Shown here piece after piece: positions 25,725 to 62,487 of a DNA stretch of 64,000 bases (the first letter of the stretch is position 1; each line of letters begins with the position of its first letter). A model generated the notes under the pieces. The model saw only the letters and a list, made by a program, of their open reading frames with translations. It searched no databases and had not been told where the DNA came from. This DNA is from an uncultured Flavobacteriaceae bacterium (GTDB taxonomy: Bacteria > Bacteroidota > Bacteroidia > Flavobacteriales > Flavobacteriaceae): assembly GCA_905182295.1 (NCBI GenBank), contig CAJJAZ010000003.1:62001-126000 (forward strand). The letters are read 5' to 3'. A program made the translations under genes and the position numbers.

Positions 25725-27134
25725 TTAAAGTGTAGACGGACACACATATTCAGAGGTTTTAGCACCTGATTCTTGCAGGCTTTTGAACCCTCCAGCCACG
25801 TCTATTAAATTGTGTATTCCCCTGCTCTTCAATATAGAAGACGCTATTACAGAACGGTAGCCTCCTGCGCAATGCACTAGGAAGTCGCCTTCAGAGGGGA
25901 AGGATGATAAGTGATCATTTAAAGCATCTAAAGGAGCTGTTTCTGCAGTTAATACATGTTCAGAAAGGTATTCTGGTGTATTTCGTACGTCAAAAACGGC
26001 TTGGTTATTTTTCTCTACTCTTTCAATAGCTTCTGCCGCTGAGATGGAGTGAATTTGATCTACTTCTTTACCACTTGCTTTCCAAGCGTCAAAACCACCT
26101 TCTAAATAACCCATGGTTTGGTCAAAACCAACTCTGGAGAGTCTGGTAATGGCTTCTTTTTCTCTTCCTTTTGGCGCAATGAGTAAGATAGGTTGTTTTA
26201 CGTCTGCAATAAGTGCCCCTACCCATGGTGCAAAGGAACCATCTAATCCTATAAAAATGGATCTTGGTACAAATCCTTTTACAAAGTCTGATTGGTGACG
26301 CACGTCTAAAACAATGGCTTCTGTTTCGTTGGCCGCTGCTTCAAAAGCCTCTGGAGACAGTGGTTTTATACCACGCTCTAGTACTTTGTCAAAATCTTCA
26401 TAGCCTTCCTTGTTCATTTTAACATTTAAAGGGAAGTATTTTGGGGGTGGCATTAAACCGTCAGTAACTTCTTTGATGAACTCTTCCTTGGTCATGTCGG
26501 CCCGAAGGGCATAGTTCATTTTCTTTTGGTTTCCTAGGCTGTCTACCGTTTCTTTCATCATATTTTTACCGCAGGCAGATCCTGCCCCATGTGCTGGATA
26601 TACGGTAATACTGTCTGCCAAGGGCATGATTTTAGTTCTAAGGCTGTCGAATAGTGTTCCCGCCAAATCTTCTTGGGTCATATGGGCGGCCTTTTGAGCC
26701 AAATCAGGACGTCCTACATCGCCTAAAAAGAGGGTGTCTCCAGAAAAAATCGCATGGTCTTCTCCTTGGGCATCCTTTAGCAAAAAGGTGGTGCTCTCCA
26801 TAGTGTGACCTGGTGTATGTAGGGTCACAAAAGTAAGGTCTCCTAATTTAAATTCCTGACCATCGGTTGCAATAAGTGCTTCAAAGGATGGGTTTGCTAA
26901 TGGACCATATACAATGGTAGCGCCAGTCTCTTTAGCCAAAGTTACGTGCCCGCTCACAAAATCTGCATGAAAATGGGTCTCAAAAATATATTTGATCTTT
27001 GCATTATTGGCTTTGGCTTTTTCGATATAAGGCCCTACTTCTCTAAGGGGATCTATAATGGCTACTTCGCCATTAGACTCTATATAATAGGCGCCTTGCG
27101 CCAAGCATCCGGTATAAATTTGTTCTATTTTCAT
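25725..27134 (-). CDS. Persulfide dioxygenase-like metallo-beta-lactamase fused to two rhodanese domains
   Basis: A 469-residue enzyme resembling CstB/ETHE1-rhodanese fusions that oxidise glutathione or low-molecular-weight persulfides. The MBL domain (1-240) has THFHAD (53-58), H63, H110 in HTPGH, D133 in SGDTLF, and a His in YPAHGAGS. The first rhodanese domain (about 262-358) has LDVRHQSDF but LIAPKGRE where the active-site Cys loop should be, so it is inactive. The second (about 364-469) has C422 in HCAGGYRS and should be active. It is downstream of the Crp/Fnr gene and has its own promoter with a palindromic operator. Confidence 0.88.
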   Translation of the reverse strand: MKIEQIYTGCLAQGAYYIESNGEVAIIDPLREVGPYIEKAKANNAKIKYIFETHFHADFVSGHVTLAKETGATIVYGPLANPSFEALIATDGQEFKLGDLTFVTLHTPGHTMESTTFLLKDAQGEDHAIFSGDTLFLGDVGRPDLAQKAAHMTQEDLAGTLFDSLRTKIMPLADSITVYPAHGAGSACGKNMMKETVDSLGNQKKMNYALRADMTKEEFIKEVTDGLMPPPKYFPLNVKMNKEGYEDFDKVLERGIKPLSPEAFEAAANETEAIVLDVRHQSDFVKGFVPRSIFIGLDGSFAPWVGALIADVKQPILLIAPKGREKEAITRLSRVGFDQTMGYLEGGFDAWKASGKEVDQIHSISAAEAIERVEKNNQAVFDVRNTPEYLSEHVLTAETAPLDALNDHLSSFPSEGDFLVHCAGGYRSVIASSILKSRGIHNLIDVAGGFKSLQESGAKTSEYVCPSTL

Positions 27135-27156
27135 GCCTTTTATGTTTTGTTATTGT

Positions 27157-27164
27157 CAAAAGTA
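27157..27164 (-). promoter_or_regulatory. Predicted promoter of the MBL-rhodanese gene, -7 box
   Basis: Minus-strand TACTTTTG matches TAnnTTTG exactly, 23 bases upstream of the ATG. No TTTG is present at the -33 position, which suits an activator-dependent promoter. Confidence 0.6.
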
Positions 27165-27183
27165 TTAAATAAAGTCAGTATGC

Positions 27184-27203
27184 TTTGTAACATCTGTTAC
27201 CAA
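27184..27203. promoter_or_regulatory. Candidate Crp/Fnr operator
   Basis: The palindrome TTxGTAAC-ATCT-GTTACxAA has 5-bp perfect inner arms and matching outer TT/AA. Its centre lies roughly 40-44 bases upstream of the predicted start of the MBL-rhodanese transcript, which is the class II activator position. The gene for a Crp/Fnr regulator ends just upstream. Confidence 0.6.
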
Positions 27204-27210
27204 GGGTTAC

Positions 27211-27846
27211 TTACAAATCAATCACAGTAATGTCGTTCCTATGCATAGAAATTTTACCCTCATTCTCTAATTTTTTTAAGAGCCTAGAAATAACCACTCT
27301 TGAGGTGTGCAAGTCATAAGCAATCTCTTGATGGGTGGCATGTATGTGGTCATCTCCCGTCACTTTCGCTTTGTCTTGCAGGTGCTTTAAAAGGCGGTCG
27401 TCCATGCGCATAAAAGCTAAGGTGTCTATGGTTTGCAACAATTCCTTCATTCTTGCCTGATAACTATCTAACACAAATTGCTGCCAGGTCTTGTACTTGC
27501 CCATCCAAGATTCCATTTGAGCAACAGGGATCATGACAATCTCTGCATCTGTCTCTGCCACAGCACGAATGTCACTTTTGCTGCCTCCCATACAACATGA
27601 AAAACTCATGGCACAGGTATCTCCTTTTTCTATGAAGTACAAAAGCAATTCGTCTGATTTCTCATCTTCTCTCATGATTTTAATCGCTCCTGAAAGTAAT
27701 AAAGGCATGTGGGTAATGAGCTCCCCTATTTCAATAAGTTGCTGTCCCGCAGCAACTTTCTTTAAACTACCATATGCAAGAATTTCTTCCATCAATGGCG
27801 GCTCAAAAAGAAAACCGTAATGTTGTTCTAATGCTTCTTTAAACAT
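27211..27846 (-). CDS. Crp/Fnr-family transcriptional regulator with a C-x5-CC motif
   Basis: A 211-residue regulator. The N-terminal cyclic-nucleotide-binding-type beta-roll (about 20-120) carries C78, C84 and C85 in DTCAMSFSCC, a candidate thiol sensor. The C-terminal winged helix (about 165-205) has THQEIAYDL followed by the recognition helix TSRVVISRLLKKLE. There, Val replaces the Glu that in E. coli CRP and FNR contacts the DNA core, so a different operator is expected. The four-cysteine N-terminal cluster of classical FNR is absent. It lies 4 bases after the M20 peptidase gene and 76 bases before the MBL-rhodanese gene, its likely target. Confidence 0.88.
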   Translation of the reverse strand: MFKEALEQHYGFLFEPPLMEEILAYGSLKKVAAGQQLIEIGELITHMPLLLSGAIKIMREDEKSDELLLYFIEKGDTCAMSFSCCMGGSKSDIRAVAETDAEIVMIPVAQMESWMGKYKTWQQFVLDSYQARMKELLQTIDTLAFMRMDDRLLKHLQDKAKVTGDDHIHATHQEIAYDLHTSRVVISRLLKKLENEGKISMHRNDITVIDL

Positions 27847-27850
27847 ATAA

Positions 27851-29158
27851 TTATGGATGTAAAAGTCTATAAATTAAGACAGCCGTTCTTTGGGTGAGCG
27901 CTTCAATAGTTTTTAAATTCACCGTTTCTTGTGGGGTATGAGCGCCCGTTCCCATGGTCCCTAGACCATCTAAACAAGCTACATAGTTCGCCACAAATGA
28001 GGTGTCTGCAGCCCCTCTTTTTCCTGGATCATAGGCCAACACTGCTCCCTGATTTAGATCTAAGCTTACTTGGTTTAACTGGGTTAAAAGCGCAATATTC
28101 TGTGGTGTTGGTGGCATGGCTGGATAACTGTCAGTGAAAAATATTTTCGCAGTAGTTTGTGGGAGGTTTCTACTAATTACTTCCCTCATTTTGTTTCTAG
28201 CGCTGTCTTTTTGTGCTTCGGTAATAAACCTCAACCCTCCTTGAACGGTAGCCGTCTGTGCCACTACATTACTCTTTCCAAAAGCGGTTGCGTTACCTGT
28301 GAGTGGGTCTATACTTGTAAAAGTTCCACCAACCATCATTCCAGGGTTAAAACTCAATAAATCTGGGCCTTTAACCTGTTGGTAAAAATCATTTAAAATT
28401 CTGCCCATTTCAAAAATGGCACCAGCTCCAGTGCGTTCACTGAAAACACCTGAAGAATGGGCTCTTTTTCCAGTGGTGGTAACTTTCCATCCAGAAGCAC
28501 CTCTTCTGGCCACTGTGGCGTAATTAAACCCTGTAGATGTTTCAAAACCTAGGGCAATATCTGATTTTTTAGCTGCGTCAATGAGATCCTTTCTACTAAT
28601 GGAAAGTGGCTTCCCTGAACTCTCCTCATCTCCGGTAAAGGCTACAATTACCTGAGTATTTTTAAGTAATCCTTGCTCATTCAGGGCTTTCAAAGCATAG
28701 AGAATAATAACGTTTCCACCTTTCATGTCATTCCCCCCTGGCGCATGGGCAATACTATCATTGATTCTCTCAAAGTTTTGAAAAGGACTGTTTTCTTCAA
28801 AGACAGTGTCCAAGTGGCCTATCAGTAAAAGTCTTTTTCCAGTGGGTTTTTTTACGGAGGGGGTTTCTACAAACAAATGCCCGGCCCTATTTAATGAATC
28901 TGGCATAGAAATCCACCTAGGTTCCATCCCAATAGATTCAAAAGCACCACTAAAAACAGTCCCTACCTCTTTTACCCCTTTGAGATTTAATGTGCCACTA
29001 TTGATATTTACTACCTTTTCTAAAAATAAAATAGCCTCTGAATTGTTTGCAGATACCGAAGCTATAAGCTGTTGCTCTATTTTGTTGCGTTTTTGGGCGT
29101 TTAGAGAGTGAAAAATAAAACTTACAAGAAGCAGTGTGACAAAGAATGGTTTACTCAT
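27851..29158 (-). CDS. M20-family metallopeptidase, glutamate carboxypeptidase-like
   Basis: A 435-residue exported zinc peptidase with a signal peptide (MSKPFFVTLLLVSFIFHSLNAQ). Zinc ligands and catalytic residues are visible in GHLDTVF, NDMKGGNVI, TGDEESSGK (general base Glu) and GTGAHTPQE. A dimerisation lid lies between TTTGKRAHSSG and the C-terminal part. RGAADTSFV resembles the carboxypeptidase G2 group. It probably trims C-terminal glutamate or similar residues from peptides or folates in the periplasm; the substrate is inferred. It is the first gene of the M20-Crp group. Confidence 0.85.
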   Translation of the reverse strand: MSKPFFVTLLLVSFIFHSLNAQKRNKIEQQLIASVSANNSEAILFLEKVVNINSGTLNLKGVKEVGTVFSGAFESIGMEPRWISMPDSLNRAGHLFVETPSVKKPTGKRLLLIGHLDTVFEENSPFQNFERINDSIAHAPGGNDMKGGNVIILYALKALNEQGLLKNTQVIVAFTGDEESSGKPLSISRKDLIDAAKKSDIALGFETSTGFNYATVARRGASGWKVTTTGKRAHSSGVFSERTGAGAIFEMGRILNDFYQQVKGPDLLSFNPGMMVGGTFTSIDPLTGNATAFGKSNVVAQTATVQGGLRFITEAQKDSARNKMREVISRNLPQTTAKIFFTDSYPAMPPTPQNIALLTQLNQVSLDLNQGAVLAYDPGKRGAADTSFVANYVACLDGLGTMGTGAHTPQETVNLKTIEALTQRTAVLIYRLLHP

Positions 29159-61870: not shown

Positions 61871-62487
61871 TACTTCTCAATAGTTACGTAAGCGTTCTTA
61901 TGACCAGGTACACATCCTTTTACTACTAAAATGTTTTTCTCTGGAACAACTTTTAAAATTCTAAGGTTTAAAGCAGATACTCTAACACCACCCATTCTTC
62001 CAGCCATTTTCATGCCTTTGAATACCCTAGCTGGATAAGAAGCAGCACCAATAGATCCTGGTGCTCTTAACCTGTTGTGTTGTCCGTGAGTCGCTTGTCC
62101 AACACCGGCAAAACCGTGTCTCTTAACAACCCCTTGAAAACCTTTACCTTTTGAGTTTGCAGCAATATCTACAAATTCACCTTCTACAAAAAGATCCACA
62201 CCAATGGTGTCACCTAATTTGTAATCTCCTTCAAAATCTCGGAACTCAACAACTTTTCTTTTAGCAGAAACACCCGCTTTTTTAAAGTGACCTGCAGCCG
62301 CTTTAGTGACGTGTTTCTCTGCCTTGTCATCGAAACCAAGTTGAAGGGCATTGTACCCGTCTACCTCTTCGGTTCTGACTTGGGTAACCGTACATGGGCC
62401 AGTCTCAATAACGGTACATGGCATATTCTTTCCATTCTCGTCAAAAATACTGGTCATGCCAATCTTTCTTCCTATTAACCCAGACAT
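61870..62487 (-). CDS. rplC: 50S ribosomal protein L3
   Basis: A 205-residue early-assembly protein. [52 protein letters not shown] and [34 protein letters not shown] are diagnostic. It begins the S10-like unit after a 172-base structured gap. Confidence 0.98.

Follow-up and report, generated by a model that had tools for sequence, protein, structure and literature searches.

What controls the reactive-sulfur genes of flavobacteria, and which signal does the controller read? One locus raises this question in the window, a stretch of 64,000 nucleotides that spans positions 62,001 to 126,000 of contig C3 in the genome of an uncultured Flavobacteriaceae bacterium (1.36 Mb, 61% complete). There, in this order on the minus strand, a Crp/Fnr-family regulator gene is followed by a palindrome, a −7 box and the start, at 27134, of a gene for a metallo-β-lactamase (MBL)-rhodanese protein. 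From sequence comparison, we describe for this regulator an operator with a preferred promoter geometry, a predicted regulon with sulfur genes, a pairing of regulator residue 184 with the third base of the operator half-site, and the conservation of one cysteine, C78. In our view, the regulator is likely to be a flavobacterial member of a cross-phylum Crp/Fnr activator family for reactive-sulfur defence. The locus comprises the following features.

27211..27846, minus strand: Crp/Fnr-family regulator of 211 amino acids, with a cNMP-binding-like sensor domain and HTH_Crp_2
27613..27615, minus strand: codon of Cys78, the only Cys that is invariant in the aligned sets (homologue alignments)
27595..27597, minus strand: codon of Cys84 (homologue alignments)
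27592..27594, minus strand: codon of Cys85 (homologue alignments)
27295..27297, minus strand: recognition-helix codon for Val184 (other members have Glu), a residue that covaries with base 3 of the operator half-site
27184..27203, unstranded: operator TTTGTAAC-ATCT-GTTACCAA, directly beyond the stop codon of the regulator, from the sequence and its conservation in relatives
27157..27164, minus strand: −7 box TACTTTTG, at an offset of 29 from the palindrome centre
25725..27134, minus strand: protein of 469 amino acids with an MBL and two rhodanese domains, a CstB-like persulfide dioxygenase-rhodanese and predicted regulon member, from Pfam and structure matches

The regulator matches cNMP_binding (PF00027, 37.6 bits) and HTH_Crp_2 (PF13545, 37 bits), both above the cut-off, and so carries the cNMP-binding-like domain and the Crp-type helix-turn-helix that define the CRP/FNR superfamily. 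No NCBIfam equivalog matched it at cut-off, and homologues were found in 340 of 397 genomes of the window's family at E<=1e-20. The putative target enzyme contains Lactamase_B and two rhodanese stretches in Pfam, and it aligns nearly end to end with the structures 3tp9 (1e-64) and 3r2u (2e-49). Its GSACGK and HCAGGYRS motifs align with their counterparts in both, giving the MBL, pseudo-rhodanese and rhodanese domains of the CstB-type persulfide dioxygenase-rhodanese, along with its motif cysteines, one in GSxCGK and one in the rhodanese loop. We take 3r2u to be CstB, and these two cysteines are presumably its key ones.

The initial annotation had reported the palindrome at 27184-27203, the perfect −7 box at 27157-27164, the lack of a −33 TTTG, and the residues C78, C84, C85 and V184 of the regulator, and all of these were confirmed at the positions claimed; the 22-base spacer between operator and box has no TTTG. 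The palindrome alone is a modest find. It is the sole match in the window within two mismatches, with a mean of 0.36 matches in shuffled sequence and at least one match in 29 of 100 shuffles, and the bare GTAACN4GTTAC occurs four times exactly in the window's genome, against five for the reversed pattern, which is not above chance. When the palindrome is combined with the −7 box, the count in this genome is four against zero for the reversed pattern, far above chance, and with its promoter and gene context the palindrome is not a chance occurrence. Each of the four exact sites has the box and stands before a sulfur operon; the genes concerned are a YeeE pair (Sulf_transp), the MBL-rhodanese gene, TauE, and a rhodanese gene with an SQR-like remnant.

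The same arrangement was observed in relatives. We fetched 80 orthologous loci with a 12-member profile and added 15 kb of the window; the record titles give members of Flavobacteriaceae and one metagenome-assembled genome labelled Saprospiraceae. Exact GTAAC-N4-GTTAC was found 115 times in 132.5 kb of intergenic sequence, and the 1134 kb of genes contained 12 copies, while spacings of 0-3 and 5-10 between the same half-sites gave 0-1 matches each in either kind of sequence, and other permutations of the five letters of the half-site gave at most nine intergenic matches. Among the 121 site-gene pairs, the gene after the operator encodes TauE in 33, MBL-rhodanese in 25, rhodanese in 16, SulP in 7, SQR-like proteins in 5, HMA in 5 and YeeE in 4, with others making up the rest; the 25 bear out the earlier prediction that the operator is conserved before homologous MBL-rhodanese genes beside this Crp subgroup. 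The operator precedes the regulator gene itself in only 2 of the 121 pairs.

The distance between operator and promoter is also conserved. A TAnnTTTG box lies at an offset of 29 from the operator centre in 59 of the 121 pairs and at 28 or 30 in another seven (66 in total), any other offset is seen in at most one pair, and the reversed-string control gave none at 28-30. A scan for the operator, 21-23 bases and TAnnTTTG in 60 genomes of the family, the window's own included, yielded 102 matches in 42 genomes, and the pattern read backwards yielded none. In 163 distinct operator-box spacers, TTTG occurs 20 times against 17.9 after shuffling and TTG 56 times against 57.4; there is no excess, and therefore no −33 element. 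Sites of class II CRP/FNR activators are centred at about −41.5, and a box offset of 28-30 in 66 of 121 pairs places the operator there relative to the predicted start. The predicted layout of operator and box is thus that of a class II activator, as the initial annotation had proposed.

The first genes downstream of the sites outline the predicted regulon. Of the 102 matches, 100 lay in the stretches examined (G006:C4:437 is among those left out), and their first genes encode TolC-like proteins (20), TauE (18), MBL-rhodanese (16), rhodanese (7) and YeeE (6), and more rarely SulP (3), CydA (2), NrfD/Fe-S (2), cytochrome c (2) and HMA (2). These labels come from BLAST clusters with a Pfam check on one representative per cluster, and SQR is the name that we presume for a Pyr_redox_2 protein. 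Seven of the 100 sites are inside a called open reading frame; the TauE site of the window's genome was counted as unnamed because the called TauE start spans it. The sister genome G343 has seven exact palindromes. Six are at genes for rhodanese, an SQR-like protein, TolC-MFP-RND efflux, TauE, 1-Cys peroxiredoxin and MBL-rhodanese, and the seventh is between two unnamed genes. Genome G166 has two sites: one, with a box, precedes TolC-MFP, and the other separates an SQR-like gene from a divergent gene.

Two of these targets deserve a separate description. No other single target follows the operator-box pattern in the family as often as the TolC-MFP-RND efflux operon (20 of 100 sites), of which two examples are given here.

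L418, 3752-9360: TolC-MFP-RND efflux operon (Pfam OEP, HlyD, ACR_tran)
L422, 1327-5000: TolC-MFP-RND efflux operon (Pfam OEP, HlyD, ACR_tran)

The SQR-like gene of the window's genome (L213 769-1362, G000:C7, outside the window) encodes 197 amino acids. Residues 1-144 are 82% identical to the sister SQR (L418, G343:C9), and the rest matches a 101-amino-acid gene that in L418 follows SQR and the TolC-MFP-RND operon. The remnant is a deletion of several kilobases with an in-frame fusion, either real or an assembly fault.

Three lines of comparison bear on whether the regulator binds this operator. The regulator is absent (E 1e-12) from six of the 60 genomes, none of which has the operator with its box, and present in 54, of which 42 have it. 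Beside the regulator gene, several Val-type genomes that lack the exact site have near matches, for example GTAAT-N4-GTTAC; of the 54 genomes, 19 were typed at residue 184, giving 16 Val and 3 Glu. In G166, which is 98% complete, the regulator is the only cNMP-binding match in a Crp-sized frame, the other match being in a 673-amino-acid frame. The residue at position 184 was read in 159 homologues: 117 have Val and 42 have Glu. The strict operator-box scan gave a single match at Glu-type loci and was replaced by a base-neutral scan for half-sites, in which the third base is A 290, T 24, G 21 and C 7 times at Val loci and G 64, A 26 and T 2 times at Glu loci. At the nearest site, a GTGA half is present in 34 of 34 Glu loci having a site (8 have none) and in 9 of 85 Val loci having a site (32 have none), an association with a Fisher value of 8e-22 when kinship is ignored. 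PMC1274295 describes a precedent in CRP/FNR proteins, a correlation between residue 181 of CRP and an operator base. The covariation of residue 184 with base 3 therefore ties the regulator to the GTAAC/GTGAC operator.

Homologues outside Bacteroidota extend this pattern. A tblastn search of plasmid records returned 27 records, of which 20 were examined, 13 of them from Pseudomonadota. All 13 have C78, C84 and E184, and in 12 of them the stretch from the regulator to its neighbouring gene has a GT[AG]A[CT]-N3-[AG]T[TC]AC site, resembling GTGAC-N3-GTCAC, where 0.03 such sites would be expected in all 15 scanned loci; several of these homologues are near relatives of each other, and the N3 spacing was noticed before it was counted. 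Other spacings from 0 to 8 gave no site at the Pseudomonadota loci, and A. lipoferum has none. The combination of E184 with a GTGAC-type site agrees with the rule seen in Bacteroidota. Of the 12 annotated Pseudomonadota loci, 9 have an MBL-fold gene among the first four genes downstream of the regulator; eight of these nine also have SulP, and in five the run includes YeeE, DUF6691 or both. The Thiothrix and two Azospirillum loci have a DUF2892 gene and no MBL gene, and at the P. sediminicola locus a peroxiredoxin gene and CydAB adjoin the regulator. Of four annotated Bacteroidota plasmids, those of Spirosoma, Pontibacter and Runella have TauE and MBL genes beside the regulator (split in two pieces in Runella) and that of Persicobacter does not. 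The clostridial Pusillibacter locus (L435 5989-6648) has no annotated MBL, TauE or YeeE neighbours. As an observation in its own right, the half-sites are alike in the two phyla and the operator spacer is three bases in Pseudomonadota (L428-L446) versus four in Bacteroidota.

Within the sensor domain, one cysteine stands out. C78 is Cys in 158 of the 159 homologues, the single gap being L274, where an in-frame stop falls within the match, whereas position 84 is Cys in 120, Gly in 26, Ala in 9, Asn in 3 and Ser in 1, and C85 is kept in 98. The initial annotation had expected all three cysteines to be conserved; this held for C78, which is invariant in the aligned sets, and not for C84, partly lost, or C85, which varies. 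In a phylum set of 80 loci picked by profile score with no peptide filter (79 counted after L315, with no called regulator reading frame, was dropped), C78 is present in 78 of 79 with one gap, C84 in 40 and C85 in 20. Among the best protein matches (L001-L030), C78 and C84 are both kept in 30 of 30, and in a further 19 family genomes in 19 and 16. From the alignments, C84 is retained in near relatives and Pseudomonadota and lost from part of Bacteroidota, and C85 is variable. The clostridial relatives, Pusillibacter and PDB 3dv8, retain the C-x5-C pair.

C78 lies just ahead of, and C84 and C85 lie inside, the stretch that aligns with the phosphate-binding cassette of the Crp from L356. The cassette of cAMP-responsive CRP has Arg82 and Ser83. 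In the regulator, Ser91-Asp92 align with the Arg-Ser of the L356 Crp (E. coli CRP was outside the alignment), and Ser91 is found in 156 of 159 homologues, with mostly Glu at position 92; by this residue check we rejected a cAMP-responsive CRP. FNR with its 4Fe-4S cluster has an N-terminal Cys triad and one central Cys, and an FNR-type regulator was likewise rejected: in 160 rows, the only columns with more than 10% Cys are 78, 84 and 85. The predicted structure has a mean pLDDT of 81.9, with block means of 65 and 55 for residues 71-90.

Several points weigh against the regulator as an activator of reactive-sulfur genes. The operator copies are not independent because many of the fetched loci are kin, 55 of the 121 site-gene pairs have no perfect −7 box at 28-30, and the box is perfect at only 2 of 6 G343 sites inspected. 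Twelve of the 54 regulator-bearing genomes lack the exact operator with box, and of the 100 scanned sites, 20 precede the TolC-type efflux operon, 19 precede unnamed or other gene clusters, and 3 have no called gene. One GTAAC-type site is found in the Glu-type genome G010. A tree made without the recognition helix gives only about five changes between Val and Glu, and its three starred independent pairs are concordant in 2.8 cases on average and opposite in none, for which the sign test gives p 0.25. The 80-locus set, with C78 and C84 in 80 of 80 and C85 in 78, is biased, as its retrieval peptides GDTCAM and DL[HN]TSRVV favour C78 and V184. A distant tblastn match, H27 (Fusobacterium, E 1e-9), has no Cys, and its exclusion from the family is partly circular. 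Finally, a requirement for all three cysteines is rejected, as C84 and C85 are lost outside the near relatives, among others in L278, which keeps its sulfur neighbourhood; a C78-C84 bridge is therefore not the general mechanism. This argues that in such groups one thiol can suffice, or that they sense differently.

With these points weighed, we propose that persulfide or polysulfide from sulfide or thiol stress would modify C78, and C84 as well in members that have it, for instance by a polysulfide link between C78 and C84. The modification, in the region that matches the CRP phosphate-binding cassette, would switch the dimer to its DNA-binding state. The dimer would then bind GTAAC-N4-GTTAC centred near −41 and may recruit RNA polymerase by class II activation at TAnnTTTG promoters without a −33 element, driving the MBL-rhodanese gene here and TauE/SafE, the YeeE pair and the rhodanese operon elsewhere in the genome. 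The regulon and the position of the cysteine suggest persulfide or polysulfide as the ligand and C78 as the site of its chemistry, and we infer activation rather than repression. We also lean, by a little, toward the broader proposal of an undescribed Crp/Fnr activator family in Bacteroidota, Alphaproteobacteria and Thiothrix, in which the cAMP-pocket region has turned into a persulfide-sensing Cys site (C78, ancestrally C-x5-C). Such a family would stand beside CstR, SqrR and FisR as their Crp/Fnr counterpart, and its operator would shift in spacer from N4 to N3 between phyla and in half-site from GTAAC to GTGAC with residue 184.

The same genes could be controlled in response to another signal, such as H2O2, HOCl, disulfide stress, O2 via a metal or Fe-S at C78/C84/C85, or sulfite or thiosulfate. 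The invariance of only one Cys would suit such a signal, as would the 1-Cys peroxiredoxin, CydA and the RND efflux operon among the predicted members, but the core neighbours in two phyla are MBL-rhodanese, TauE, YeeE, rhodanese and SulP, and we regard another signal as unlikely.

The operator sequence itself is already published, for HcpR2, a CRP/FNR branch that adjoins hcp in Clostridium, Bacteroides and others. As given by Rodionov et al. 2005 (PMC1274295), its motif is GTAACnnnnGTTAC and is explained by Pro replacing Glu-181. The window operator has this consensus, and the regulator could be of the HcpR2 type, responding to nitrosative stress through heme/NO, with GTAACnnnnGTTAC before sulfur genes by chance. 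In G614, the hcp gene beside one Crp (L372) is preceded by this same operator together with a TATCTTTG box of the TAnnTTTG type. However, the L372 Crp differs from the window's regulator in its SRPSL helix, with Pro at the 184 position, and in having no Cys cluster, at 17% identity and E 1.4. In a tree of 43 rows, the family and two clostridial rows are split from eight other Crps, L372 included, with support of 95/95 and long-branch warnings. The gene hcp was matched in 63 of 296 genomes of the phylum, none of them in the window's family, with no match in the window's genome (61% complete), and it is not among the named first genes at the 100 family sites. A family profile search of hcp-linked Crps matched 1 of 30 loci, at 17 bits. 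HcpR2 membership is therefore rejected, on the separate branch, on Val or Glu in place of Pro, and on the lack of hcp in the 61%-complete genome and among the named first genes, and an HcpR2-type regulator whose operator lies before sulfur genes by chance is very improbable. Since an hcp-linked Crp has this operator too, finding the motif is not enough to assign a regulator to a site in Bacteroidota. Separate hcp-adjacent Crps with GTAAC-N4-GTTAC are located at L372 ~1042 and L329 ~3189.

The reactive-sulfur activator proposed here also differs from known persulfide sensors. The cst operon contains CstB, the target genes of SqrR and BigR include MBL, TauE and YeeE genes, and FisR is a Fis-family regulator with a different fold. 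According to PMC9774590, CstR is the persulfide-responsive thiol sensor and repressor of the cst operon, SqrR and BigR are two-Cys sensors of sulfide or persulfide that act as repressors, and FisR is an activator with three conserved Cys that responds to reactive sulfur species. CstR of Staphylococcus aureus has a CsoR fold and SqrR/BigR an ArsR fold, unlike the Crp/Fnr regulator of the window, so that the distinction from CstR and FisR drawn earlier is upheld; of 100 family genomes, 7 have a match to CsoR/CstR-type PF02583, and the window's genome has none. Repression of the sulfur genes with release by persulfide, as in CstR, SqrR and BigR, which repress, whereas FisR activates, deserves very little credence, given a site centred near −41, clear of the −7 box, without a −33 element and in the arrangement of class II activation.

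The fold is common to CRP/CAP, 3dv8 and the regulator. The nearest solved structure, 3dv8 (a Crp/Fnr protein of Eubacterium rectale, with no assigned function in its title), has a C-x5-C like C78/C84. The Crp of Acinetobacter baumannii is, according to PMC7315123, 50% identical to E. coli Crp and therefore not in the regulator's family; the same paper gives the effect of persulfidation on it as not known. Full-text searches of open-licence papers turned up no description of the window's regulator.

Immediately upstream of the regulator, at 27851-29158, is an M20-family peptidase gene, and many of the 80 fetched loci repeat the order FtsX, PALP enzyme, M20, epimerase-like, Crp. It may point to a link between the regulator and the use of thiol amino acids.

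Flavobacteria have been reported, with other bacteria, to oxidise thiosulfate in marine sediments (PMC12345210), and none of the open-licence papers that the searches turned up names a regulator of these sulfur genes in them. If the proposal is true, the regulator would add a new Crp/Fnr branch to the known persulfide sensors, and its operator motif could be used to find new reactive-sulfur genes, for example in the efflux operon. The losses of Cys would provide a natural series for studying how a Crp fold works as a switch with one thiol or two. The recurrence of the regulator with similar genes in two phyla makes the proposed new kind of sulfur sensor directly testable.

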